DNA of 43,420 nt, from NCBI GenBank assembly GCA_949293165.1, contig CASFCW010000008.1, positions 1-43,420 of the forward strand, given 5' to 3'. Numbering within the stretch: the first letter of the stretch is position 1; the number at the start of each line of letters is the position of its first letter. The notes under the pieces are model-generated. The model did no database searches, was not told where the DNA came from, and worked only from the letters and a program-made list of their open reading frames with translations. A program made the position numbers and the translations under genes. Shown piece by piece: positions 1 to 10,623 of the stretch. Origin of the DNA: an uncultured bacterium. Its GTDB lineage: Bacteria; Bacillota; Clostridia; Oscillospirales; Oscillospiraceae.

Positions 1-260
1 TCCGCGGGGAGCAGAAGTCATGGCAAGCCATGACTTATCCCCGCTCTCCCCCCGGTCCCCCATAGGAGGTGGAATGACCTGGGTAGGAGGACAGTAGGTT
101 CCGCTCAAAAGACAAGAGCCTTTGTGCGGGGGTTTGAGGGTGGAAATTAGGGGACCTATCTTTCGTGCTGGATTGCGGAGTTATATCCAAACCTCAGGCG
201 GCGAGGGCGAAACGCAGTTTCGCAGGAAGTTCTTTGCTTACTTTCTTTCCAAGAAAGTAA
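1..260 (+). repeat. Composite repeat copy A (truncated by the window edge)
   Basis: Positions 1-65 match the long block of the composite repeat seen at 7958-8330 (plus) and 3771-4167 (minus), including the hairpin with 8-bp arms at 17-24 and 27-34. After 65 the sequence departs from the other copies. A short unit follows at about 158-260. It has the internal 7-bp hairpin at 207-213/217-223 (GCGAAAC, GTTTCGC) and a terminal palindrome at 238-247/251-260. The last codons and stop of the MATE gene lie in that palindrome. No convincing gene is present in 1-237. Confidence 0.75.
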
Positions 261-1596
261 GGGGGCGGTAGACGGTGAAATACATGGTGATGAAGCAGGC
301 CAGGCCGCCCACCAGCTGAGAGACAGCCTCCGCCACAAACACGCCGGTGGTCCCCATCCAGATGGGCAGGATGACGGTGAGGGGGGCGTTGATGATGGCC
401 TTCCGCAGCAGGGAGAAGAACACAGCCTTCCTGGAGTGGCCCAGGCTGACAAAGACGGACTGGCCGGCCATCTGGAGAGACATGGGGATAAACAGGCAGA
501 AATAAATCCGCAGGGCGGGGATGCCGTGCTCCAGCACGTCGGCGCCGTCGTTAAACACCCGGATCAGCAAGCCGGGAGCCAGCATAGCCAGCAGCCAGAA
601 GGCGGCGGAGTAGAGCACCGTCACGCCCACGCTGAACCGGATGGACTCCTTCACCCGGCCATACTCCCCGGCCCCGTAGTTGTAGCCGGTCACCGGCTGG
701 GCGCCGTTGGTCAGGCCGTGGACGGGCATGGAGAATACCTCCCGGAGGGAGTTGATGATGGTCATGATGCCCACGTACAGGTCGCCGCCATAGCTCTGGA
801 GGGTGGCGTTGCACACCACCTGCACCAGGCTGTTGGTCATATTCATGAAGAAGCCGGACAGGCCCAGGCTGATGATCCGCTTCACCCGCCGGCTGTGGAG
901 GGCCAGGCAGTCCCGGCGGAGGCGGAGGATGGCCCGCCGCCCGGTGAGAAACCGCAGCACCCACACCGCCGACACGCCCTGGGAAATCACCGTGGCCAGT
1001 GCGGCGCCCCGCACCCCCATATTCATAAGAAAAATGAAAATGGGGTCAAGGATAATATTCAGCGCCGCCCCGATAACCACCGTCACCATCCCCACCCGGC
1101 CGAAGCCCTGGGAATTGATGAAGGGATTCATCCCCAGGCTAATCATCACAAACAGGGTGCCGCAGAGATAGATGGTCATGTACTGGTCGGCATAGACAAA
1201 GGTGTCCGTGCTGGCCCCGAACAGATACAGGATAGGCTCCTTGAGCAGGAGGAAGAAGGCGGTGGCCGCCGCACCCAGGATGAGCAGCAGGGTGAAGGCG
1301 TTGCCCATGACCCGCTCCGCCTCCTCATTGTCCCCGTGCCCCCGGCTGATGGAGCACAGGGGGGCGCCGCCGGTGCCGCACAGGTTGGCAAGCCCCATGA
1401 TGATGGACACGATGGGGATGGTGACGCCGATGCCCGTCAAAGCCAGGTGGCTGGTGCCGGGCAGACGGCCCAGATAGATCCGGTCCACCACGCTGTACAG
1501 CACATTCACCAGCTGGGCCGCCGTCATGGGCAGGGCCAGCGCCATAATGTTGCGGGAAATACTCCCCTTGGAAAAATCGTTCTGCGTCTGGGCCAT
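238..1596 (-). CDS. MATE family drug/sodium antiporter
   Basis: This 452-residue polytopic membrane protein is of the MATE family, which exports cationic drugs or metabolites in exchange for Na+ or H+. The N-terminus (SISRNIMALALPMTAAQLVN) and the following motif VDRIYLGRLPG are typical of the DinF/NorM-like branch. About 12 hydrophobic segments run through the protein, a normal length for the family. The start at 1596 is chosen because GAGGAGG stands just upstream. A longer in-frame start at 1671 would add 25 residues unlike the family. The last seven codons (TFLERK plus stop) come from the terminal palindrome of the repeat at 158-260. The substrate cannot be read from sequence. The gene appears monocistronic. 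Confidence 0.9.
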   Translation of the reverse strand: MAQTQNDFSKGSISRNIMALALPMTAAQLVNVLYSVVDRIYLGRLPGTSHLALTGIGVTIPIVSIIMGLANLCGTGGAPLCSISRGHGDNEEAERVMGNAFTLLLILGAAATAFFLLLKEPILYLFGASTDTFVYADQYMTIYLCGTLFVMISLGMNPFINSQGFGRVGMVTVVIGAALNIILDPIFIFLMNMGVRGAALATVISQGVSAVWVLRFLTGRRAILRLRRDCLALHSRRVKRIISLGLSGFFMNMTNSLVQVVCNATLQSYGGDLYVGIMTIINSLREVFSMPVHGLTNGAQPVTGYNYGAGEYGRVKESIRFSVGVTVLYSAAFWLLAMLAPGLLIRVFNDGADVLEHGIPALRIYFCLFIPMSLQMAGQSVFVSLGHSRKAVFFSLLRKAIINAPLTVILPIWMGTTGVFVAEAVSQLVGGLACFITMYFTVYRPLTFLERK

Positions 1597-1750
1597 GGGC
1601 CCGCCTCCTCTTTCCACCCTATTTTCTCCCGCCGGCGGCGGGGGAGAGCTGCAATTTCTGTCACTCAACATTTCATTTTAACACAAATTTTACAAAAGGG
1701 AAAGAGCGGAGAGTGGAGATATGGCGCTTGCTTTCGTTCAAGAAAGTAGT

Positions 1751-1782
1751 AAGACCGCCGGCGCAGACGCGCCGGCGGTCTT
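1751..1782 (-). terminator. Hairpin terminator after rpmF
   Basis: Perfect 14-bp arms (1751-1764 and 1769-1782) surround a 4-nt loop, 15 bases beyond the rpmF stop. The minus-strand tail is only moderately T-rich. Just beyond it, at 1731-1750, is a degenerate remnant of the repeat-family palindrome. Confidence 0.75.
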
Positions 1783-1796
1783 GTTTCACAGGCAAA

Positions 1797-1982
1797 TTAC
1801 TGGGCCTCCACCTTGCCGAAAGAACGGCCGTTGTAGGTCAGGCAATTTTTGCACATCCGGTGGGGCAGCCGATAGGCACCGCACTTGGGACAGGTCACGA
1901 TACCGGGAGTCTCCAGCTTCCAGTGGGAGCTGCGCCGCTTATCGCGCCGGGCCTTGGACACTTTTCTCTTAGGAACCGCCAT
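1797..1982 (-). CDS. rpmF: 50S ribosomal protein L32
   Basis: This 61-residue protein begins [20 protein letters not shown], the standard L32 N-terminus. It carries the zinc-ribbon cysteines CPKC and CKNC (C33, C36 and the pair after HRM), so it is the zinc-binding (C+) form. It is a structural protein of the large ribosomal subunit. AAGGAGG precedes the start at 1982. An upstream in-frame ATG at 2012 would add a tail that L32 lacks. It lies 48 nt after the yceD stop, the conserved yceD-rpmF pairing, and is probably transcribed from the promoter at 2586-2614. Confidence 0.97.
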
Positions 1983-2030
1983 TGGTGACACCTCCTTCGG
2001 TTTCTGTGCCATAGGGCACGTCTGGACTAC

Positions 2031-2534
2031 TCAGCTTTGCTGATCCAACAGCTGCGAAAGCGCCGCCAATCGTGGATCCACTTCGGGTCTGCACCCGCAG
2101 GGGCCGAGGTTCAGATCGGCACCACACCTGGCGCATAGCCCTTTGCAGTCTTCTGAGCAAAGGTTCTTTGTATCCATCGCGAGGATGAACGTCGTGTTGA
2201 CCACCTCGTCCAAATCCAGCTCGCCGTTGTCCAAAAGAAAGTAATCCGCCTCACTGTCCTCGTCCTCCAGCTCCGTGGCCAGAGGGCTGTCCAGGGAGAC
2301 CACCTTCTCCCGGGAAAACGCTTTCCCGCAGCGGTCACACACCAGATCCAGCTCCGAGCGGGCCGTTCCGTTTAGGACCAGAGCGCCGGCGTGGTTGACC
2401 ACCCGCCCCTGAACCAAAACAGGCCGCACAATCGGCTTTCTCCCATAAAATTCCAGGCCGGACAGATCCGCCTGGAATTCGAAGGGCTGCTCCGCGTCGG
2501 GTACGTGAATGATCTTCCGTAAATCCAGGCGCAT
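2031..2534 (-). CDS. yceD: YceD/DUF177 family protein
   Basis: This 167-residue protein belongs to the YceD (DUF177) family, which sits next to rpmF in most bacteria. The family is linked to 23S rRNA accumulation in plants and E. coli, and its biochemical role is not settled. The sequence starts MRLDLRKIIHVPD, has a CDRCGKAFSREK motif mid-protein and ends with a cysteine cluster (CSEDCKGLCARCGADLNLGP) that probably binds a metal. The start at 2534 follows GGGAGGG. The first gene of a two-gene operon with rpmF, it has a near-consensus promoter. Confidence 0.9.
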   Translation of the reverse strand: MRLDLRKIIHVPDAEQPFEFQADLSGLEFYGRKPIVRPVLVQGRVVNHAGALVLNGTARSELDLVCDRCGKAFSREKVVSLDSPLATELEDEDSEADYFLLDNGELDLDEVVNTTFILAMDTKNLCSEDCKGLCARCGADLNLGPCGCRPEVDPRLAALSQLLDQQS

Positions 2535-2585
2535 GGCGATCCCTCCCGGGGTTTGACCCCTTACTCGCATAATGGTACGGGGAAT

Positions 2586-2614
2586 ATTATATAGAATGAC
2601 CGGGGAAATGTCAA
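2586..2614 (-). promoter_or_regulatory. Vegetative promoter of yceD-rpmF
   Basis: Read on the minus strand, TTGACA (2614-2609) and TATAAT (2591-2586) are separated by exactly 17 bases. Both hexamers match the sigma-A consensus, consistent with a ribosomal protein operon. Confidence 0.9.
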
Positions 2615-2628
2615 ACCTTTTTTTGTGG

Positions 2629-2657
2629 TTGACAAATATAATTTTTTATGGTGGAAT
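2629..2657 (+). promoter_or_regulatory. Probable promoter of the RluA-type gene
   Basis: TTGACA at 2629-2634 is followed after 17 bases by TGGAAT at 2652-2657. A better -10 (TATAAT, 2637-2642) lies nearby but has only a weak -35. The site is back to back with the yceD promoter: the two TTGACA boxes are 14 bases apart on opposite strands. Confidence 0.5.
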
Positions 2658-2701
2658 TTGAGGGAAATCCCACAGGATGGACAAAGGGGAGGGGCGGCCA
2701 C

Positions 2702-3679
2702 ATGAAGGAATTCACCATTGGGAAAAACGACGCGGGCCAGCGGCTGGACCGCTGGCTGGGAAAGACCCTGCCTCTGCTGCCGGCGCCTTTGGCCCAGAAG
2801 TACATCCGGCTGAAGCGGGTGAAGCTCAACGGCAAGGGGGCCAAGCGGGACACCCGCCTGGCGGTGGGCGACGTGCTGCAATTATATATCAACGACGAGT
2901 TTTTTGACAAGCCCACCCCGGAAAACGCCTTCCTGTCCCTGTACCAGCCCAGGCTGAACATCCTCTATGAGGATGAGCACATCATGCTGCTGGACAAGCG
3001 GCCGGGGATGGTGGTCCATCCCGACGAGACCGAGCGGGTCAACACCCTGCTGACCCACATCCAGGCCTACCTCTATCAAAAGAGGGAGTGGTCGCCCTAT
3101 TGGGAAAACTCCTTCGCCCCCGCCCTGTGCAACCGGATTGACCGGAACACCGGCGGCATCGTCATCGCCGCCAAGACCGCCGAGGCCCTGCGGGTGATGA
3201 ATCAGAAAATCAAGGACCGGGAGCTGGAGAAATACTATCTCTGTGTGGTGCACGGCCCCATGCCCAAGGGGGAGGGGCGGCTGGAGCACTTCCTATTAAA
3301 GGATGAGGGGAAGAAGCAGGTCTCCGTATACAACAAGCCGGTGCCCGGCGGCAAGACCGCCGTCACCCTGTACCGCACCCTGGTCAGCGGGGAGAAGCTG
3401 TCCCTGGTGGAGTGCGAGCTCATCACCGGCCGCACCCATCAGATCCGGGCCCAGTTCGCCCACATCGGACACCCCCTCCTGGGGGACGGCAAGTACGGCA
3501 GCCAGCGCAAAGACAAGGATTACGGCCGCCACGGCCAGGCCCTCTATTCCTACAAGCTCACCTTCCGCTTTACCACCCCCGCCGGGCCGCTGGAGCAGCT
3601 CAACGGCCGCTCCTGGCAGGTGGAGGAGGTGGACTTCGTCAACGAATACTTTCCACACTACTTTCTTGAAGGAAAGTAG
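2702..3679 (+). CDS. RluA-family 23S/tRNA pseudouridine synthase
   Basis: This 325-residue protein has an N-terminal S4-like RNA-binding region (GQRLDRWLGK, then KYIRLKRVKLNG) followed by the catalytic domain. The active-site motif is RIDRNTGG, with the catalytic aspartate inside it. LLDKRPGMVVHPDE and GRTHQIRAQFAHIGHPLLGD are RluA/RsuA signatures. The enzyme converts uridine to pseudouridine in rRNA or tRNA, but the target cannot be assigned. The start at 2702 follows GGGGAGGGG. A 54-nt longer frame has no Shine-Dalgarno. The last codons (YFLEGK plus stop) lie in the palindrome of the repeat unit at 3658-3770, so the C-terminus appears capped by the repeat. Confidence 0.92.
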   Translation: MKEFTIGKNDAGQRLDRWLGKTLPLLPAPLAQKYIRLKRVKLNGKGAKRDTRLAVGDVLQLYINDEFFDKPTPENAFLSLYQPRLNILYEDEHIMLLDKRPGMVVHPDETERVNTLLTHIQAYLYQKREWSPYWENSFAPALCNRIDRNTGGIVIAAKTAEALRVMNQKIKDRELEKYYLCVVHGPMPKGEGRLEHFLLKDEGKKQVSVYNKPVPGGKTAVTLYRTLVSGEKLSLVECELITGRTHQIRAQFAHIGHPLLGDGKYGSQRKDKDYGRHGQALYSYKLTFRFTTPAGPLEQLNGRSWQVEEVDFVNEYFPHYFLEGK

Positions 3680-4312
3680 GCAAAGAACGTTCGCGGAAAG
3701 CTGCGCTTTCCTTCTCGCTGCCTGGGGTTTGGATTGGGTTCTACACCTCAGTACGAAAGAGAATCCCCCGTCGTTTCCTCCCCCCCTTGTACAGACCGGC
3801 GCTGCTTGCGCTCCTTCCTTTTGATGGCAGACATATTCATCAAGGAAGCAGCCCGGCGGATATTCGCCGTAGAAGGGCAAGCCAATGGTTATAGCCAAAG
3901 GTTACGGAAAGAAGAGCGCCTGGGAGGCGCGGGCGGGAGAAGGGCCGGACAACACAGCTGAGCCGCCCCGCCGGGGAAATTTGCAGAAGGACTCTTGGAT
4001 AAGCCACGGTACAGGCTTGTTCGACTGCCCATGGGGGACCGGGGGGAGAGCGGGGATAAGTCATGGCTTGCCATGACTTCTGCTCCCCGCGGACCCCCGG
4101 CACGTTTTTGGTTCCTTTTGTCGTGTAACAAAAGGAACCCGCCCGCAGGCGGAACCCGCAGGCGGAACCTACTTTCTTGAAAGAAAGTAGGCAAAGAACG
4201 TTCGCGGAAAGCTGCGCTTTCCTTCTCGCCGCCTGAGAATGAGATTTAATTCCTCACCCCAGCACGAAAGGCAATCGTCTGGTGCGGGCTGCTGGGGACA
4301 GCGGCCCCTACA
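3658..4312 (-). repeat. Composite repeat, left inverted arm (copy B-L-C)
   Basis: On the minus strand this arm reads unit C (4280-4168), long block L (4167-3771), unit B (3770-3658). The same order is found on the plus strand at 7815-8440, so the two form a long inverted repeat. Units B and C each carry a 7-bp hairpin GGAAAGC/GCTTTCC (3695-3711 and 4206-4222) and a terminal palindrome (3658-3679; 4168-4191, perfect 11-bp arms). L contains a hairpin with 8-bp arms at 4060-4077 and one with 12-bp arms near 4110-4140. A GC-rich hairpin at 4288-4312 matches 7818-7843. I see no supportable gene here. Confidence 0.85.
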
Positions 4313-4344
4313 AAGGAACGGTGCACCCAGCCGCCGTGTGTAGA

Positions 4345-4393
4345 GGACGGTGTCCTCACCGTCCCGACCCCGCTTTCTTGTCAGAAAGCGGGG
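4345..4393. repeat. Two hairpins abutting the cysE promoter
   Basis: A hairpin with 8-bp arms (4345-4352/4357-4364) is followed by a perfect 11-bp palindrome CCCCGCTTTCT/AGAAAGCGGGG (4368-4378/4383-4393). The second resembles the repeat-family terminal palindrome with its outer arm changed on both sides. It ends directly against the -35 box at 4394. Confidence 0.6.
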
Positions 4394-4425
4394 TTGACAC
4401 GTGGGGGCGGGGATGATAATATAAT
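4394..4425 (+). promoter_or_regulatory. Promoter of the cysE-cysS T-box leader
   Basis: TTGACA lies at 4394-4399. The -10 is in the AT-rich run at 4415-4425, with GATAAT at a 15-base spacing and TATAAT at 20 as the choices. Transcription would start around 4431, just before the T-box stem I. Confidence 0.7.
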
Positions 4426-4430
4426 GGCTT

Positions 4431-4660
4431 GTAGGCACTGTGAACGGAAAAGTAGCGTTTCGCTCAAGAACAGAGAGGGCCCCTCACCGGCTGCAAGGGG
4501 GCCTGCGGCGGCGGGATGTGAAGTGCGTCCGGGAGTGCGGAGGGTAATGCCTCCCGCATGGGCCCCGATACCGGCCTGAAAAGTGAGAAATGAGAGTGGA
4601 ACCGCGATGTCTCATCGCCTCTTATGCCTGCGGAAGGGCGTAAGGGGCGTTTTCCTTTCC
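4431..4660 (+). promoter_or_regulatory. T-box leader, cysteine-specific (transcriptional)
   Basis: The T-box core TGGAACCGCG is at 4597-4606, flanked by ATGAGA and TCTCAT arms that form the antiterminator. A competing terminator follows: CGCCTCTTATGCC (4616-4628) pairs with GGCGTAAGGGGCG, allowing G-U pairs, and TTTTCCTTT follows. Stem I features are AGTA (4451-4454), the AG-rich bulge AGAGAGGG (4472-4479) and a likely specifier TGC at 4524-4526 (cysteine codon) after GAAG. Uncharged tRNA-Cys should favour readthrough into cysE-cysS. The specifier position is read by eye. Confidence 0.88.
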
Positions 4661-4691
4661 CTTCCGCGGGGGAAAAGGAGGGAAACGACAC

Positions 4692-5360
4692 ATGTTCAAA
4701 AATCTCAACGAGACGCTGGAGGCTTACCAGCGCCGCGACCCCGCCGCCCGGAGCAAGCTGGAGATCCTGCTGCTGTACCAGGGCGTCCACGCCACCCTGT
4801 ACCACCGGCTGGCCCACTGGCTGTACTGCCGCAACCGGCGGTTTTTGGCCCGGTGGGTGAGCCAGTGGAGCCGGTTCTGGACGGGCATCGAGATCCACCC
4901 CGGGGCCAAGATCGGCCGCCGGTTCGTCATCGACCACGGCATGGGCATTGTCATCGGCGAGACCGCCGAGGTGGGGGACGACTGCCTGCTCTACCACGGG
5001 GTTACCCTGGGCGGCACCGGCAAGGACCACGGCAAGCGCCACCCCACCATTGGGAATAATGTACTCATCGGCTGCGGCGCCAAGATCCTGGGGCCCTTCC
5101 AGGTGGGGGACGGGGCCCGCATCGCCGCCAACTCCGTGGTGCTCAGCGAGGTGCCCCCCCAAGCCACCGCCGTGGGCATCCCCGCCCAGATCGTCCGCAT
5201 CGCCGGCAAAGCCACCCACTACGCCGACGAGGTGGATCAGACCAGCGTGGAAAACCCCACCCTGGAGCGGCTGGAATCCATCTCCGCCCGGCTGGACCTG
5301 GTGGAGCGGCTGCTGGACGAGCAATACAAGAAAAACCACCCTTCCCTGAAGGACAACTGA
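4692..5360 (+). CDS. cysE: Serine O-acetyltransferase
   Basis: This 222-residue enzyme acetylates L-serine with acetyl-CoA, the first step of cysteine synthesis. After an N-terminal helical part come the left-handed beta-helix hexapeptide repeats: [40 protein letters not shown], then [15 protein letters not shown]. The DHG and YHG histidines are the conserved acid-base residues. It is the short form found in Firmicutes. AGGAGG lies upstream of the start at 4692. Its stop is 16 nt before cysS, so both genes share the T-box control that senses tRNA-Cys charging. No cysK is visible in the window. Confidence 0.96.
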
Positions 5361-5376
5361 TAAGGAGGCATATCCT

Positions 5377-6828
5377 ATGCTGCTGTATAATTCCGCTACC
5401 CACAAGAAAGAGGAGTTCCAGACCCACACCCCCGGCAAGGTGGAGATGTATACCTGCGGGCCCACCGTGTACCACTTCGCCCACATCGGCAACCTGCGCT
5501 CCTACATCATGGAGGACGTGCTGGAGAAGTTCCTCCGCTGGTCCGGCTATGAGGTCAACCGGGTCATGAACATCACCGACGTGGGCCACCTCAGCTCCGA
5601 CGCCGACACCGGCGAGGACAAGATGCTCAAAGGCGCCAAGCGGGAGCACAAGACCGTCATGGAGATCGCCCAGTACTACACCGACGCCTTCTTCGACGAC
5701 TGCCGGAAGCTGAACATCAAGCGCCCCGACGTGGTGGAGCCCGCCACCCGCCGCATTGACGACTATATCCGTATTATCTCCGGCCTGCTGGACAAGGGCT
5801 ACGCCTACCAGGCCGGCGGCAACGTCTACTTCGACACCTCCAAGCTGGAGCGGTACTATGTCTTTAACGACCACAACGAGGAGGATCTGGCCGTGGGCGT
5901 CCGGGAGGGCGTGGAGGAGGACGCCAACAAGCGGAACAAAAACGACTTCGTCCTCTGGTTTACCAAGTCCAAGTTCGAGGACCAGGCCCTGAAGTGGGAC
6001 TCCCCCTGGGGCGTGGGCTATCCCGGCTGGCACATCGAGTGCTCCGGCATCTCCATGAAGTACAACGGGGAGTACCTGGATCTCCACTGCGGCGGCATCG
6101 ACAACGCCTTCCCCCACCACACCAACGAAATCGCCCAGTCCGAGTCCTTCCTGGGCCACCCCTGGTGCAAGCAGTGGTTCCACGTCCATCACCTGAACAC
6201 CAACAGCGGCAAGATGTCCAAGTCCAAGGGGGAGTTTTTGACCGTCTCCCTCCTGGAGGAGAAGGGCTATGACCCCCTGGCCTACCGCTTCTTCTGCCTG
6301 CAAAGCCACTACCGCAAGGGCCTGGTGTTCTCCTGGGAGAACCTGGACAACGCCCAGGGGGCCTACAACAAGCTCATCGCCAAAATCGCCGCCCTGGACC
6401 CCAAGGACGGGGAGGTGGATGAGGCGGTGCTGGCCCAGTACAAGGAGAAGTTTGCCCAGCAGGTGGGCAACGACCTGAATACCTCCATGGCCGTCACCGC
6501 CCTGTACGACGCCCTGAAGGCCAAGACCAACGGCGCCACCAAGCTGGCCATCCTGGACAGCTTCGACCAGGTGCTGTCCCTGTCCCTGCTGGACAAGGCC
6601 GCCAAGGCCCGGGAGGAGCAGGCCAAGGTGAAGGCCGTCCAGTCCGCCGGCGGCTACACCGTCACCGGCCAGGGCGACCCGGAGATCGACGCCCTGGTGC
6701 TGGCCCGGGGCGAGGCCAAGAAGGCCAGGAACTTCGCCGAGGCCGACCGCATCCGGGATCAGCTCAAGGCCATGGGCGTGGAGGTCACCGACGTGCCCGG
6801 CGGCGCCGCCTGGACCCGACTTTCTTAA
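5377..6828 (+). CDS. cysS: Cysteinyl-tRNA synthetase
   Basis: This 483-residue class I aminoacyl-tRNA synthetase charges tRNA-Cys with cysteine. It has the zinc ligand C27 in MYTCGPTVY, the HIGH motif as HIGN (36-39), further zinc ligands around C222 and H247 (WHIECSG, FPHHTNE) and KMSKS at 279-283. Length is normal for the family. AAGGAGG precedes the ATG. The gene ends TRLS with a stop made of half of the repeat-family palindrome (ACTTTCTTAAAG), as several neighbours do. It is co-transcribed with cysE. Confidence 0.97.
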   Translation: MLLYNSATHKKEEFQTHTPGKVEMYTCGPTVYHFAHIGNLRSYIMEDVLEKFLRWSGYEVNRVMNITDVGHLSSDADTGEDKMLKGAKREHKTVMEIAQYYTDAFFDDCRKLNIKRPDVVEPATRRIDDYIRIISGLLDKGYAYQAGGNVYFDTSKLERYYVFNDHNEEDLAVGVREGVEEDANKRNKNDFVLWFTKSKFEDQALKWDSPWGVGYPGWHIECSGISMKYNGEYLDLHCGGIDNAFPHHTNEIAQSESFLGHPWCKQWFHVHHLNTNSGKMSKSKGEFLTVSLLEEKGYDPLAYRFFCLQSHYRKGLVFSWENLDNAQGAYNKLIAKIAALDPKDGEVDEAVLAQYKEKFAQQVGNDLNTSMAVTALYDALKAKTNGATKLAILDSFDQVLSLSLLDKAAKAREEQAKVKAVQSAGGYTVTGQGDPEIDALVLARGEAKKARNFAEADRIRDQLKAMGVEVTDVPGGAAWTRLS

Positions 6829-6906
6829 AGAGAACAGAAAAAATGCGGATCGGATGTCTGAACATGCCGGGTGACCACATCAAACGGCGGCAGGCAACCA
6901 ACAATT

Positions 6907-6951
6907 GCCTGCAATGTAAACTGCATGTGGTTTACATTGCAGGCTTTATTT
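6907..6951 (+). terminator. Terminator after cysS (perfect 15-bp inverted repeat)
   Basis: Arms GCCTGCAATGTAAAC (6907-6921) and its complement (6930-6944) enclose 8 bases, followed by TTTATTTTTT. This is an intrinsic terminator for cysE-cysS. It also lies 28 bases upstream of the Xre-type gene, so a second role as its operator is possible. Confidence 0.8.
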
Positions 6952-6972
6952 TTTAAAATGGGGGTACATCAG

Positions 6973-7386
6973 ATGCAGTTGGCGGAGAAACTGGCGGCTC
7001 TGAGAAAGAACAAGGGCATCTCTCAGTTGGAGTTGGCGGAGATGGTGGGGGTTTCCCGGCAGGCGGTGTCAAGATGGGAGTCATCCACTTCCATGCCATC
7101 CACTGAAAATTTGAGAGTGTTGGCGGAACTGTATCATGTTTCCCTGGAGTATCTGCTTGACGATACAATCCAGGAGACGGGGCAGAAGAAGCCTGAGGAG
7201 CCCAAAGAAGAATCTGTCCCCCGCAGGACAAGGATCGTCATAGGCATTGTGCTGGCGGTTCTTGTTGTGGCTTTGGTGTTGGCCTTCGCCGCTTCAAAAG
7301 CAGAGAACAAGGTCCACGCCATAAAGGACTTAGAAAAGAGTGAAATTGAAACGACTGGTGAGGTAAGCATTGATTTTGCGTGGTGA
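6973..7386 (+). CDS. Membrane-anchored Xre-family transcriptional regulator
   Basis: This 137-residue protein has an N-terminal Cro/C1-type helix-turn-helix (about residues 5-58; ISQLELAEMVGVSRQAVSRW is the classic recognition region). A charged linker follows, then one transmembrane helix (about 92-113, IVIGIVLAVLVVALVLAF) and a short outer tail. HTH-plus-TM proteins of this layout are common in Clostridia, usually beside the membrane proteins they control. The start at 6973 fits the domain and has GGGGG upstream. Alternatives at 6958 and 6871 would add residues outside the HTH. The next gene is 25 nt downstream and probably co-expressed. Target genes are unknown. Confidence 0.85.
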   Translation: MQLAEKLAALRKNKGISQLELAEMVGVSRQAVSRWESSTSMPSTENLRVLAELYHVSLEYLLDDTIQETGQKKPEEPKEESVPRRTRIVIGIVLAVLVVALVLAFAASKAENKVHAIKDLEKSEIETTGEVSIDFAW

Positions 7387-7411
7387 TTCTTTTTGAGAGG
7401 AGCGGGTAGCG

Positions 7412-7636
7412 GTGAAAATAAGGAGTCGTTTTAGCCAATTGCCTGTGGCGCTTTTCTGCGTTGCCTTTCTCATTGCCGTTCTGTCCTTTTTGTGGATGGT
7501 GTGGTGTTGGTTTCAGTGGTATACGCCGGAGTATTTCTTCTACGAAGCGATTCCGTTTGCAATCGTCTGCGGAGGAGCTCTGATCGCCGCGGCAATCCTG
7601 GGCAGAGATATGATGAGACAATCCGATCAAAAGTAA
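7412..7636 (+). CDS. Small two-helix membrane protein, unknown
   Basis: This 74-residue protein starts with GTG at 7412 behind GAGAGGAG. Two hydrophobic helices are visible (about residues 10-33 and 45-64), separated by a short aromatic loop (CWFQWYTPEYFFYE), and the tail is polar. I do not recognise the family. Its position directly after the membrane-anchored Xre regulator, with a shared terminator at 7717, suggests a two-gene unit. Lower GC than neighbouring genes is visible. Confidence 0.65.
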   Translation: MKIRSRFSQLPVALFCVAFLIAVLSFLWMVWCWFQWYTPEYFFYEAIPFAIVCGGALIAAAILGRDMMRQSDQK

Positions 7637-7716
7637 CTGGAATACCGGTATCCACCGGTTTGTCCTCCCCCCAGTTCCAGAGATAGGGTGTGTTTTCTGG
7701 TTTTCAAACGCAGCAG

Positions 7717-7766
7717 ACCACCCGTTTCCATGCACTTGGTTTTTGTGCATGGGGGCGGGTGGTTTT
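7717..7766 (+). terminator. Terminator after the small membrane protein gene
   Basis: ACCACCCG...CCATGCAC (7717-7734) pairs with GTGCATGG...CGGGTGGT (7745-7763) with small internal mismatches, followed by TTTTG. Confidence 0.75.
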
Positions 7767-7814
7767 GTAATTTCGGAATGAAAAGCCAAGAGTTTGCATG
7801 TCATGCAGTCTATG

Positions 7815-8440
7815 TGTAGGGGCCGCTGGGGACAGCGGCCCGTATGATACGATTTTCTTTCGTGCTGAGGTGGGGAATCAAATCTTACTCCCAGGCGGCG
7901 CGGGCGAAACGAAGTTTCGCAGAAAATTCTTTGCCTGCTTTCTTCTAAGAAAGTAGGTTCCGCCTGCGGGCGGGTTCCTTTTGTTACACGACAAAAGGAA
8001 CCAAAAGCGTGCCGGGGGTCCGCGGGGAGCAGAAGTCATGGCAAGCCATGACTTATCCCCGCTCTCCCCCCGGTCCCCCACGGGCAGTCGAACAAGCCTG
8101 TACCGGGGCTTATCCAAGGAGCCTTGCGCAAATTTGCCCGGCGGGGCGGCTCCGCTGTGTCGTCCGTCCCTTCTCCCGCCCGCGCCTCCCAGGCGCTCAT
8201 TTTCCGGTAGGCTTTGGCCCGCCCTTCTGCGGTAAAATCCGCCGGGCTGCTTCCTTGATGAATATTTCTGCCATCAAAAGGAAGAAGCGCAAGCAGCGCC
8301 AGTTTTACGCATGAGGGAAAGAGAGTGCGGGGAATTCTCTTTCGTGCTATGGTGTGGAATTAAATTTAAACTGTAGGCGGAGCGAGGCGAAACGAAGTTT
8401 CGCAGGAAGTTCTTTGCCTACTTTCTTTCAAGAAAGTAGG
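7815..8440 (+). repeat. Composite repeat, right inverted arm (copy D1-L-D2)
   Basis: Order on the plus strand is a GC-rich hairpin (7818-7843), unit D1 (about 7848-7957), long block L (7958-8330) and unit D2 (about 8331-8440). It mirrors 3658-4312. Internal hairpins GCGAAAC/GTTTCGC lie at 7904-7920 and 8387-8403. Terminal palindromes lie at 7934-7957 and 8417-8440. L contains perfect hairpins at 7973-7984/7991-8002 and 8035-8042/8045-8052. Short open frames here are also found in the other copy, but they lack ribosome sites. I treat 7815-8440 as non-coding. Confidence 0.85.
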
Positions 8441-8477
8441 GAGCGCAAGCAGCGCCGGATTGTGCAGGGGGGAGGGA

Positions 8478-8596
8478 ATTGCGGGGAATTCTCTTTCGTG
8501 CTGCGGCGTGGAATTAAATTTAAACTGTAGGCGGCGAGAAGGAAAGCGGAGCTTTCCGCGAAAATTCTTTGCCTACTTTCTTTTCAAGAAAGTAGG
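8478..8596 (+). repeat. Additional repeat unit D3
   Basis: This is a tandem third unit after D2, in the same orientation. Its internal hairpin has the other arm type, GGAAAGC (8541-8547) and GCTTTCC (8551-8557). The terminal palindrome CCTACTTTCTT/AAGAAAGTAGG (8572-8582/8586-8596) holds the stop codon of the DnaC-like gene. Confidence 0.85.
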
Positions 8597-9423
8597 CGGT
8601 GGTTGGGGCGGCCGGTGAAATCCAGGTAAAAGCCACGGCTGCGCTCATAGATCCGGGAGCCCAGGGCCTCGTCCAGCTCCAGCAGGCCGTTGATATTCCA
8701 CTGGGAGGAGAGGAGGGTGACGCAGCTGGGCCGGTTATACCGGGCGTTGAGCAGCTCGAAGGCCAGATTCACGTCCCCCGGCGTGGGAGCCTGGTCCCGG
8801 CCGGTTTTGAACAGGTCGTCGATGTAGAGCACATCCACCGTCTTGAGGGGCTCCACCAGGGCCTGATAGGCCTCCGGCTGGTTGACCAGGGCCTTTGCCC
8901 GCACGGTCAGATCCCGCCACACGGCGTAGCGCACCTCCCGGCCGCCCTCCATCAGCCGGGCGCACAGCCCCACGCACAGGTGGGTCTTGCCCGTGCCCGG
9001 CCCCCCCGCCAGGTAAAACCACCCCTCCGGCCCCGAGGCCAGCCATCCCCGGGCCAGGGCCAGCGCCTGGCTCTGCCACGGGCTGTCCCGCCGCCAGCTG
9101 TCCAGGGTGTACCGCCGGGCCAGCTCCGCCAGCCCGCTGCGGGCCAGGCTCTGCATGCTCCGCCGCCGGGCCATGCACCGGCACTCCCGGGTCCGGCAGC
9201 TGCCGTCCGGCTCCAGCACCATGAAATACCCCCGGTTCAGGCACTCCGGGCAGTCGTACCCCTCCAGCTTCCCCCGCTGCTGGTTGGCGTACTGCACCCG
9301 CCGCTTCTCCCAGTCCTTGTACCCCGTCCAGGGCGGAAGGGAGATTCCACCGGCCTCCTCCAGGCGGCGCCGGAACGGGTTGCTGATTGGGGGCTGAAGC
9401 CCCCGTCCATCCTGCTTTTCCAT
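8584..9423 (-). CDS. DnaC/DnaI-like helicase loader ATPase
   Basis: This 279-residue AAA+ protein resembles DnaC/IstB-type loaders that bring the replicative helicase onto DNA. The N-terminal third has a cysteine cluster (C58, C61, C76, C81, C83; DCPECLNRGYF and CRTRECRC), which looks like a zinc-binding module as in DnaI-type loaders. Walker A is GGPGTGKTH (about 140-148), and Walker B is in VDVLYIDDLFK. SSQWNINGLLELDEALGSRI matches sensor/arginine-finger sequence. The start at 9423 has GGAAAGGAG upstream. The final LLS plus stop come from the repeat palindrome. It follows a DnaD-like gene, giving a helicase-loading pair. Confidence 0.85.
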   Translation of the reverse strand: MEKQDGRGLQPPISNPFRRRLEEAGGISLPPWTGYKDWEKRRVQYANQQRGKLEGYDCPECLNRGYFMVLEPDGSCRTRECRCMARRRSMQSLARSGLAELARRYTLDSWRRDSPWQSQALALARGWLASGPEGWFYLAGGPGTGKTHLCVGLCARLMEGGREVRYAVWRDLTVRAKALVNQPEAYQALVEPLKTVDVLYIDDLFKTGRDQAPTPGDVNLAFELLNARYNRPSCVTLLSSQWNINGLLELDEALGSRIYERSRGFYLDFTGRPNHRLLS

Positions 9424-10096
9424 ACTCCTTGCTCCTTTCCTCCGGCCTGTCCCAGTCCGCCAGACAGGTTGCCCCACGGGCAATCCGCCGCTCCAGGATG
9501 GCCTGAATGTAACGAAATTTAGGCACCCCCTGCTCCACCGCCAGCTCCATGGCCCGGACGCAGCTGTCCACCCCCAGACGGCGGACGCAGTCGGCCAGCC
9601 CAGGGGGCAGGGGAGCAGGCAGGCTCCGGCCCAGCACCCGCCGGCACGCCGCCTCCAGCGCCGCCAGGTCAATCCCATCCCCCGCGCGAACATCCACCCC
9701 GCCAGGCAAACCGCCGCCGCCCCAGCCCTTGCCCCGGCCGCGGCCTTTCTCTTGGTCTTGGTCATCGTCTTGGTCTTGGTCTTTGTCTTTGTCTTTGTCT
9801 TGGTCTTGGTCTTGGTCTTGCATGCATTCGCATGGACTTGCATCCTCCCGCCCCTGCCACCGGGCCCGGGCCGAGCGGCTGCGCTTGTCCGAAATCTCCC
9901 GATAGGCCGCCTTGTCCCGGTCAATTTGCAGCCGTAAAGCCGGAAATACCCCCCGGGCCATCCCCCGCAGAGGCTGCGCCTCCCCCGTCTGGGCGTATTG
10001 CAGCACCGCGTCCAGCAAATCCCCCTTCTCCTCCTGGGTCAGCTCCTCCACCAGCACCGCCCAGTCGTAGTACATCTTCACGTATTTCATGGCCAT
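8735..10096 (-). CDS. DnaD-like replisome organiser; frame runs on over the loader gene
   Basis: The start at 10096 follows AAGGAGG. Residues 1-85 (KYVKMYYDWAVLVEELTQEE, AYREISDKRSRSARARW) match the N-terminal domain of phage-type replisome organisers. A low-complexity linker of alternating Asp-Gln/Asp-Lys follows. A DnaD-like helical domain comes next (AACRRVLGRSLPAPLPPGL to FRYIQAILERRIARG). Recognisable sequence ends around position 9440. No stop follows: the frame stays open to 8735, overlapping the DnaC-like gene by 689 nt in another frame. The functional protein is probably about 220 residues. The remaining 453-residue reading may reflect a lost stop or a frameshift. Confidence 0.65.
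   Translation of the reverse strand: MAMKYVKMYYDWAVLVEELTQEEKGDLLDAVLQYAQTGEAQPLRGMARGVFPALRLQIDRDKAAYREISDKRSRSARARWQGREDASPCECMQDQDQDQDKDKDKDQDQDDDQDQEKGRGRGKGWGGGGLPGGVDVRAGDGIDLAALEAACRRVLGRSLPAPLPPGLADCVRRLGVDSCVRAMELAVEQGVPKFRYIQAILERRIARGATCLADWDRPEERSKEYGKAGWTGASAPNQQPVPAPPGGGRWNLPSALDGVQGLGEAAGAVRQPAAGEAGGVRLPGVPEPGVFHGAGAGRQLPDPGVPVHGPAAEHAEPGPQRAGGAGPAVHPGQLAAGQPVAEPGAGPGPGMAGLGAGGVVLPGGGAGHGQDPPVRGAVRPADGGRPGGALRRVAGSDRAGKGPGQPAGGLSGPGGAPQDGGCALHRRPVQNRPGPGSHAGGRESGLRAAQRPV
9751..9820 (-). repeat. Hexanucleotide tandem repeat in the DnaD-like gene
   Basis: On the coding strand CAAGAC and AAAGAC units repeat about 11 times with one interruption, encoding alternating Gln-Asp and Lys-Asp. 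The 6-base unit keeps the frame when copies are gained or lost, so only linker length should vary. Confidence 0.85.
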
Positions 10097-10126
10097 CCCC
10101 ACGCCCTCCTTCATCCCTCTACTTCT

Positions 10127-10177
10127 ATTATAGAACATCTGTTCAAAATCCGCAAGAGAAATATAGAACAAAATTTC
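10127..10177 (-). promoter_or_regulatory. Promoter of the DnaD/DnaC-like pair with LexA-type box
   Basis: On the minus strand TTGCGG (10155-10150) and TATAAT (10132-10127) are 17 bases apart. The spacer contains GAACAGATGTTC (10144-10133), a match to the Gram-positive LexA/DinR core GAAC-RNRY-GTTC. A weaker relative (GAAATTTTGTTC, 10177-10166) lies upstream of the -35. LexA bound in the spacer would block the promoter and release it on DNA damage. Confidence 0.7.
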
Positions 10178-10207
10178 TATGCCCTTGGAAGGTACGGAAG
10201 GTTTTCC

Positions 10208-10237
10208 TTGCCAAGGAGGGCGGAACTGTGATATAAT
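10208..10237 (+). promoter_or_regulatory. Promoter of the structured RNA and tRNA-Ser
   Basis: TTGCCA (10208-10213), 18 bases, TATAAT (10232-10237), with TGA in front as an extended -10. Start of transcription is expected near 10243. Confidence 0.75.
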
Positions 10238-10242
10238 CCCTT

Positions 10243-10436
10243 AGCAATCCGCGGCGGCGCTCAGGCGGCCGCGCCGGGCGGCACGCGGGTCAAATCGCGT
10301 CCGGAATCTGGAGACATATCGAGGCGGGCGTAACGGGGCTGACGCGGGCGCGCCATCTGTGGAGGGATGGAAAAGCCGCACATCCGTGCGCCGAAAAGGG
10401 AATAGCGGGTTGTAAACCGGGCGGCCGGTTTTCAAT
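10243..10436 (+). ncRNA. Unidentified structured RNA, about 190 nt
   Basis: The segment has its own promoter and ends in an intrinsic terminator: TTGTAAACCGG (10410-10420), a GCGG loop, CCGGTTTTCAA (10425-10435). There is no ribosome site or plausible frame. The 5' end GCAATCCGC (10244-10252) can pair over 9 bp with GCGGGTTGT (10405-10413). Inside that, CGGCGC (10255-10260) pairs with GCGCCG (10388-10393), so the ends close on each other. Size and closed-end shape resemble 6S RNA. The SRP RNA signature, expected next to tRNA-Ser, is absent. I cannot assign a family. Confidence 0.6.
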
Positions 10437-10440
10437 ACAT

Positions 10441-10532
10441 GGAGGTGTACCCAAGTGGTTGAAGGGTCCGGATTCGAAATCCGGTAGGTCGGCTTCGCCG
10501 GCGCAAGAGTTCGAATCTCTTCACCTCCGCCA
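10441..10532 (+). tRNA. tRNA-Ser (anticodon CGA), CCA encoded
   Basis: The 7-bp acceptor stem pairs GGAGGTG with CACCTCC. The anticodon arm is CCGGA-TTCGAAA-TCCGG, giving CGA, which reads UCG. A long class II variable arm follows (TAGGTCGGCTTCGCCGGCG region), then the T arm with AGTTCGAATCT. G73 precedes an encoded CCA at 10530-10532. It sits just after the structured RNA terminator and probably shares its promoter. Confidence 0.97.
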
Positions 10533-10536
10533 AAGT

Positions 10537-10566
10537 GGAGCATCCGTCTGGATGCTCCATTTTTTG
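10537..10566 (+). terminator. Terminator of tRNA-Ser
   Basis: GGAGCATCC (10537-10545), 4-nt loop, GGATGCTCC (10550-10558), then ATTTTTTG. Confidence 0.92.
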
Positions 10567-10571
10567 TACAA

Positions 10572-10598
10572 AGAAAACCACCCGCTGGGCGGGTGGTT
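10572..10598 (-). terminator. Terminator for the histidine kinase operon
   Basis: Arms of 10 bp (10576-10585 and 10589-10598) with a 3-nt loop. On the minus strand the hairpin is followed by a T-rich tail (TTCTTTG). The IS200-type remnant lies between it and the kinase stop. Confidence 0.75.
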
Positions 10599-10623
10599 CA
10601 AAAAAGCCTGAGGCGATAAAAAA

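Follow-up and report, generated by a model that had tools for sequence, protein, structure and literature searches.

Comparison of a set of short interspersed repeats suggests that what evolution keeps in them is a fold, not a sequence. The repeats came to light in the window analyzed here, a 43,420-nt stretch that makes up the whole of one contig (CASFCW010000008.1, our C8) of the draft genome of an uncultured Oscillospiraceae bacterium (G000; 2.19 Mb, 127 contigs). We hold with good confidence, from the comparison of sequences, that the single-strand fold of these modules, including a third strand set against one of their hairpins, is under selection, and with moderate confidence that the units are interspersed repeats that are mobile or once were. 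On balance, and by a modest preference, we read them as interspersed, probably non-autonomous mobile repeats whose working part is a folded single strand. Six of the units had been picked out in an earlier note on this DNA. All six, here termed family A, were confirmed with their coordinates (Table 1), units 2 and 3 lying on the minus strand, which the note had left unstated; the arms of their first hairpin are, as it reported, GCGAAAC/GTTTCGC in three copies and GGAAAGC/GCTTTCC in the other three. Beyond the note, we found a second hairpin at the 3' end of the units, a third-strand match to that hairpin, and two repeats of a sister family, B, in the same window.

From 5' to 3', a module consists of hairpin 1, a purine-rich spacer, a pyrimidine tract of the form T(n)CT(m), and hairpin 2, the arms of which follow the pattern ..CT(m)CT(n) / A(n)GA(m)G... 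Units of G000 carry a 5' extension as well, and relatives of the same genus have only the core in common, that is, hairpin 1, spacer, pyrimidine tract, and hairpin 2. An 18-base anchor matched G000 74 times with at most two mismatches, versus 2 times for the reversed pattern, so the repeats are abundant far beyond chance. A covariance model built from 22 G000 copies (R1) returned 96 matches in this genome at E <= 0.001, the weakest of which are degenerate, and a later genus-wide model of the core (R2) returned 85 at E <= 0.0001. Some G000 units have their 5' half swapped for short repeats of the CTCTTCACTCTT type, for example at L033 2374–2509, L037 6061–6205, and L049 456–804; the 5' extension is therefore modular.

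The case for a third strand comes from hairpin 2 and the tract that precedes it. Hairpin 2 forms the 3' end of the unit and has covarying arms (CTAC/GTAG, TTCC/GGAA, CCCGC/GCGGG, CATAC/GTATG, and others). The tract T(n)CT(m) is the purine arm A(n)GA(m) complemented base by base in the same direction, with T opposite A and C opposite G, as in the tract/arm combinations CTTTTTT/GAAAAAA, CTCTTTT/GAGAAAA, and TTCTTTC/AAGAAAG, and likewise TTCTTTCT with AAGAAAGA and TTTTTTCTTTT with AAAAAAGAAAA. As far as sequence can tell, the major groove of hairpin 2 can accommodate the tract in parallel orientation, giving T.A-T and C+.G-C triples (a Hoogsteen triplex). These triples require a parallel match, which neither Watson-Crick pairing nor the copying of palindromes yields. 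With the 5' ends of both runs aligned, the match is perfect in 230/253 family A modules, compared to 30% when tracts are swapped. Among distinct combinations it holds for 125/141, versus a mean of 57.8 in 1000 shuffles (sd 3.9, maximum 72), and 41 tract-arm types include 24 perfect matches, versus 14% when types are re-paired at random. The pattern extends beyond G000, where 102/118 combinations match; within the 22 genomes that have more than one tract type, a module's own tract matches in 108/119 cases and the tract of another module in 116/602. In G100, a genome from another family, tract matches arm in 11/11 fetched copies. Family A tracts are mostly 6–9 nt long; of the window units, the five whose hairpin 2 stem is perfect have loops of 3–6 nt in that hairpin. 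Hairpin 2 loops of sequence CTCG occur in family A without a pairing partner in the spacer (by eye, with no count made).

Two other relations between tract and arm, antiparallel pairing (44/141, shuffled mean 27.3) and direct repetition (73/141, shuffled mean 55.0), were set aside as weaker than the parallel match, though both lie somewhat above their own shuffles. Pairing of the linker with the preceding purine spacer was also discarded, having failed by eye in many copies. Mutational correction of palindromes could keep hairpin arms matched without selection; it cannot yield a parallel, mirror-type match, and thus cannot account for the third strand.

Hairpin 1 has 7 bp and a C-GNA-G or C-GNNA-G loop, the former being a classic and very stable mini-hairpin loop of DNA. 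It is present at 64/75 anchors in G000 (the anchor lies 3' of the hairpin; the 11 anchors without it were dropped), with arms GGAAAGC/GCTTTCC in 33 copies, GCGAAAC/GTTTCGC in 22, GCGAAGC/GCTTCGC in 4, GGAAAAC/GTTTTCC in 2, and imperfect arms in 3. The loop was left free in this search and is GNA or GNNA in all 64 except two (ACA and CGA). A wider set, for which the loop motif was part of detection, took in the 259/319 non-B candidates in which the motif is spaced as expected and no fewer than 4/7 pairs form. Full pairing is found in 247/259 of these copies, distributed over 11 perfect arm types. A first MAFFT alignment (A2, with 51/52 G000 copies) misregisters the two hairpin types, and RNAalifold therefore understates hairpin 1 on it; covariation counts from alignment A4, whose 36 rows were chosen from perfect-stem modules, were not used as a test.

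In the window, the note had seen three compensated stem changes between the two arm types, and both arms did change together. From unit start to the 3' anchor, however, GCGAAAC units span 71, 71, and 72 nt and GGAAAGC units 73 nt (3/3), a shortening by 1–2 nt that makes one flipped and one inserted pair possible instead. Two arm types in six copies are weak evidence for the selection on structure that the note proposed, a claim now supported by the 11 arm types of hairpin 1, the many types of hairpin 2, the third-strand match, and the pseudoknot of family B. The note had also raised the possibility that recombination of whole units explains the two types. Exchange of whole hairpins does occur: units 5 and 6 (starting at 8338 and 8492) have nearly identical 5' halves and different hairpin types, and a second case (L163/L215) is described below. 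It is the breadth of matched types that carries the structural case.

In family B, loop 1 of an H-type pseudoknot would be formed by a tract similar to that of family A. Complementarity links the segment 5' of the tract to the hairpin loop (GGCACG/CGTG, GGCGG/CCGCC, GCGA/TCGC, CGCA/TGCG, GTCAC/GTGAC, TGTC/GACA), and loop-linker pairing of at least 4 bp is found in 63/95 copies versus 14% with swapped segments. Family B is accordingly a predicted H-type pseudoknot with a pyrimidine loop 1, the triplex part of which appears less regular than in family A. Taking the end of the A run as the reference point for the register, which was our second choice and was adopted after the result for the 5'-aligned register, we found linker C at the first position beyond the run to face 59/60 arm Gs and 4/34 other arm bases. 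Where loop pairs depart from Watson-Crick, they frequently read G.U on the plus strand (loops TCGT, CGTGTA, and GCCGTG), with no A.C seen by eye, which makes the plus strand the likely folding strand. U-rich triplex pseudoknots, such as that of telomerase RNA, combine S1 and S2 with a U-rich loop 1 that runs parallel to the A-rich strand of S2. Family B resembles this type, and differs from it in being dispersed in many copies through bacterial genomes.

Family B half-units also contain a 22-nt palindrome, AAGTCATGGC..GCCATGACTT, at window positions 15–36, 4058–4079, and 8033–8054, with variants such as GGACTGGGCC..GGCCCAGGTCC in other copies. In genome G012, inverted B modules form composites of about 550–650 bp (L095, L096, L112, L113, and L114), the interiors of which are conserved, hairpin-rich, apparently non-coding, and of approximate inverted symmetry by eye. 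Rfam searches of the composites L095 and L096 returned only a T-box, in L095.

The features of the two families in the window are collected in Table 1. Hairpin 2 supplies the stop codons of three open reading frames (ORFs), encoding a MatE transporter (unit 1), a pseudouridine synthase (unit 2), and an IstB-like ATPase (unit 6), at window positions 238–261, 3658–3679, and 8584–8597, respectively. Folded as RNA, each of the six units lies below the mean of its own dinucleotide shuffles (z -2.2 to -4.4), and in three of them (units 1, 5, and 6) the minimum-energy fold has other pairings in place of the 7-bp hairpin. Elsewhere in the window, positions 4431–4625 (+) give a T-box leader-like match of 55.9 bits, short of the Rfam gathering score of 93, which stands upstream of genes for a hexapeptide transferase (probably cysE) and cysteinyl-tRNA synthetase.

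Table 1. Repeat units of families A and B and their parts in the window
Feature	Position	Strand	Details
Family A unit 1	159–263	+	5' extension, hairpin 1, pyrimidine linker, hairpin 2
Unit 1, hairpin 1	207–223	+	GCGAAAC GCA GTTTCGC
Unit 1, third-strand tract	230–235	+	TTCTTT, parallel match to AAGAAA of hairpin 2
Unit 1, hairpin 2	237–261	+	CTTACTTTCTT TCC AAGAAAGTAAG
Family A unit 2	3654–3760	-	
Unit 2, hairpin 1	3695–3711	-	GGAAAGC GCA GCTTTCC
Unit 2, third-strand tract	3682–3687	-	
Unit 2, hairpin 2	3658–3679	-	
Family B pseudoknot core	4099–4139	+	S1 GGCACG, L1 TTTTTGG, hairpin 2 TTCCTTTTGT, loop CGTGTA, ACAAAAGGAACC
Family A unit 3	4165–4271	-	
Unit 3, hairpin 1	4206–4222	-	GGAAAGC GCA GCTTTCC
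Unit 3, third-strand tract	4193–4198	-	
Unit 3, hairpin 2	4168–4191	-	CCTACTTTCT TTCA AGAAAGTAGG
Family A unit 4	7856–7960	+	one G.T pair in hairpin 2
Unit 4, hairpin 1	7904–7920	+	GCGAAAC GAA GTTTCGC
Unit 4, third-strand tract	7927–7932	+	
Family B pseudoknot core	7973–8013	-	inverted copy
Family A unit 5	8338–8443	+	
Unit 5, hairpin 1	8387–8403	+	GCGAAAC GAA GTTTCGC
Unit 5, third-strand tract	8410–8415	+	
Unit 5, hairpin 2	8417–8440	+	CCTACTTTCT TTCA AGAAAGTAGG
Family A unit 6	8492–8598	+	
Unit 6, hairpin 1	8541–8557	+	GGAAAGC GGA GCTTTCC
Unit 6, third-strand tract	8565–8570	+	
Unit 6, hairpin 2	8571–8597	+	

The covariance-model search of relatives that the earlier note had suggested, run with R2, found the modules to be patchy within the genus, with R2 matches in 47/61 genomes at 0 to 85 per genome. 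They are rare in a class-wide sample of 391 genomes, where R2 matched three, G000, G100, and G143, that is, 2/390 besides G000. Because 14 candidates were scored per genome in this sample, its counts are lower bounds: at least 13 matches in G100 and at least 7 in G143, both of which belong to other families than G000. Among the matches listed, the core occurs in Pseudoflavonifractor, Lawsonibacter, Colidextribacter, 'Candidatus Pelethomonas', and Clostridium sp. MD294. Inspection by eye revealed variants in both distant genomes. Copies from the AT-rich G143 (L274, L277, and L286) have a terminator-like hairpin in the place of hairpin 1, followed by a tract of the same kind and hairpin 2, and copies from G100 (L276, L279, L285, and L288) have a second, smaller tract-hairpin after hairpin 2, resembling a tandem duplication.

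Arrangement and context bear on mobility. We merged the modules into 400 (252 A, 95 B, and 53 other), which gave 122 neighbor pairs within 1.5 kb; identical stretches were kept once, so some neighbors are absent from these counts. Seventy pairs are minus-plus, with hairpin 2 facing outward on both sides, 25 plus-plus, 16 minus-minus, and 11 plus-minus, and in 9/11 of the last group the units are at most 20 nt apart and abut end to end. The window blocks 3658–4191 and 7960–8598 hold inverted composites in mirror orientation (by eye). An insertion of about 190 bp bearing an outward pair is common to G036 and G030, with the empty site in G028 (L165); by eye it falls in the last codons of a gene, the old 3' end of which is left behind it. 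On the hairpin 2 side of the 252 A modules, the 3' end of a long ORF lies within 400 nt in 90 cases, a 5' end in 47, and neither in 115, the stop codon directly abutting the module in 22 and falling within it in 16. ORFs between paired modules comprise repeat interiors, ordinary genes, and one HTH regulator that recurs in 4 loci. Among 32 orthologous module pairs, hairpin 2 differs in 22, the arms of hairpin 1 in 12, and the tract in 19. At one such site (G027 L163 versus JACJJE L215), the flanks are about 97% identical and the whole module is of a different type, which suggests block exchange of the module at a fixed site.

Several classes of dispersed repeats invite comparison. REP/BIME repeats, mobilized by RAYT, and the ends of IS200/IS605 elements are recognized through short subterminal hairpins in single-stranded DNA and occur as dispersed non-autonomous copies; the modules differ in that the Y1 HUH transposase is absent from G000 and in tending to an inverted rather than direct arrangement. 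ERIC/IRU and miniature inverted-repeat transposable elements (MITEs) are intergenic non-coding repeats of 100–500 bp with inverted symmetry. Unlike these, as they are generally described, the modules have termini that are not conserved inverted repeats, being variable in sequence and fixed in fold. As for the hallmarks of MITEs, we found inverted end pairs and one clear insertion, with no convincing duplication by eye and ends that are not conserved in sequence. BOX, RUP, and SPRITE of pneumococcus are small interspersed repeats with extensive secondary structure that have been read as parasitic (PMC3049150). By that description the modules are alike in being small, structured, interspersed, and patchy among relatives, and unlike in their triplex and third-strand match, of which the abstract makes no mention (PMC3049150).

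The nearest published kind is that of the bacterial intrastrand-triplex repeats, as presented in PMC4666352. The PIT/BoxC/TMECO repeats of enterobacteria are dispersed, intergenic, and present in many copies, with copy numbers that swing between close relatives, and in PIT repeats one strand folds twice so that two segments share a single purine strand (PMC4666352). The modules resemble them in all of this, being dispersed many-copy repeats with a shared purine strand and swings in copy number, and also in forming inverted pairs of two motif types. The layout termed ITxF has three stems of 6–15 nt and loops of 1–6 nt (PMC4666352), and family A falls within these lengths, as judged from its tracts and from the hairpin 2 loops of the window units. 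The differences lie in sequence and order: TMECO, with the TMECO/BoxC consensus CCCTCNCCC..GGGNGAGGG..GGGNGAGGG, is G/C-rich, of the purine motif, and highly conserved in sequence (PMC4666352), whereas the modules are A/T-rich, of the pyrimidine motif, and covary in three strands. They also place the third strand 5' of the hairpin, with a GNA-loop hairpin before it, and include a pseudoknot family. We rejected membership in TMECO/BoxC by inspection, on the T/A-rich, pyrimidine-motif character of the modules. The main text of PMC4666352 contains no words beginning clostridi-, faecalibacterium, oscillibacter, ruminococc-, or pseudoknot. Consequently, the earlier note's statement that no described element has this layout stands for the exact layout, which we did not find in Rfam or the literature searched, but not for the kind, since dispersed intrastrand-triplex repeats had already been described (PMC4666352).

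Other accounts of the same data have to be weighed against a mobile repeat. The modules might be structured RNAs, in which the transcribed plus strand would fold into a hairpin plus triplex or pseudoknot and stabilize 3' ends, block processing, or act as a regulator in transcripts that are independent or arise by read-through, with spread being secondary. We consider this rather unlikely, but a serious contender. Pseudoknots of the H type with a U-rich loop 1 are typical of RNA, and all six window units fold below their shuffles as RNA; the G.U bias of family B loops, together with G.T outnumbering A.C by 107 to 28 in the 5' extension of G000 (listed cells, nine column pairs), favors RNA-like behavior. 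On the other hand, no module reaches an Rfam gathering score (at the curated threshold, window positions 1–10600 gave only tRNA and seven loci with A and B modules only a T-box), in 4/11 G100 copies a terminator-like hairpin closely precedes the plus strand (by eye), so that little RNA would be expected from it, and a range of 0 to 85 copies among congeners speaks against a needed function. G.T is, moreover, almost absent from hairpin 1 (6 cells in 259 hairpins of 7 pairs), and this near-absence, the few mismatches without strand bias, and the GNA loop would fit DNA. The same near-absence and the stability of the C-GNA-G loop favor an intrastrand triplex or cruciform that acts at the DNA level on replication or recombination without being mobile, template switching keeping the arms matched and the triplex stalling forks and so driving rearrangement nearby. 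The exchange of a module block at a fixed site is in line with this, and the described intrastrand-triplex repeats are tied to instability and likewise occur in inverted pairs of two types (PMC4666352). This account appears distinctly improbable: a mirror (parallel) match is beyond what template switching can make, which leaves selection on the triplex still needed, and the insertion of about 190 bp at a site that is empty in another genome is left unexplained.

Two simpler explanations fare worse. Passive copying, in which two or a few hairpin types of single origin would have been multiplied through duplication and recombination in the absence of structural selection, could draw on the common 5' halves of units 5 and 6 with their different hairpin types and on the block replacement at an orthologous site; given eleven perfect types of hairpin 1, 24/41 tract-arm types matching perfectly against 14% on re-pairing, and three separated segments that copying alone does not keep in step, we judge it very improbable. 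We give still less credence to ordinary transcription terminators at gene 3' ends. That 90/252 A modules have an ORF ending within 400 nt of their hairpin 2 side, with the stop abutting in 22 of them, and that G143 has a terminator-like hairpin at the position of hairpin 1 (by eye) is in line with such terminators, but the hairpin 2 side faces a 5' end in 47/252 modules and lacks a long ORF within 400 nt in 115, and by eye neither hairpin 1 nor hairpin 2 is followed by a long U-tract on either strand in the six window units. The third-strand match, too, plays no part in termination.

A number of results weigh against our own reading of the modules as mobile repeats conserved in their fold. Perfect hairpin 2 stems, and in most tests hairpin 1 stems or the loop motif, were part of detection, and all combinations are matched in only 40/54 genomes. 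Of the 19 orthologous pairs with differing tracts, 10 have each tract matched to its own arm; the remaining nine all involve four modules that bear a mismatch. The replacement of whole modules at orthologous sites means that some of the covariation reflects exchange between types already present. The mismatches of hairpin 1 are without strand bias (6 G.T, 5 A.C). For family B the 5'-aligned register fails (15/93 perfect versus 11% swapped), and at the second position past the A run T-A or C-G is found in only 52/94. Regarding movement, we saw no clear or convincing target-site duplication by eye, and no transposase recurs between paired modules in 402 ORFs from 83 intervals, where clusters were judged by eye and without a profile search. 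The Y1 transposase (PF01797) has no match in G000 (85 repeat matches), G060 (77), or G010 (42), drafts that may be incomplete, and is present in G012 (77) and G077 (82). Mobilization by Y1/RAYT was rejected for the genomes examined, since Y1_Tnp does not track copy number.

In the mechanism we envisage for the mobile repeats, two back-to-back modules with hairpin 2 outward would form the ends of a short mobile unit, the plus strand of each module being the one that folds. Whatever moves or tolerates the unit would recognize the fold and not the sequence, and many sequence types could therefore coexist. We tentatively raise the possibility, less probable than its alternative, that these repeats are a new class of bacterial mobile element with ends recognized by shape, each shape being a GNA hairpin plus a base-triple hairpin or else a triplex pseudoknot. 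Almost any sequence would be tolerated in such an end provided that its three strands match; A and B ends, from the two fold families, could be combined on one element, and modules would be exchanged as cassettes at fixed sites, often beside stop codons.

To our knowledge, the evidence for natural triplexes in bacterial repeats has so far consisted mainly of conserved sequence and the folding of oligonucleotides. Three strands that change together across many types and genomes provide comparative evidence for selection of base triples in living cells. The natural types offer a ready mutational series for studying whether such folds arise in living cells, in RNA or in single-stranded DNA, and whether recognition of the fold alone can drive a mobile repeat.

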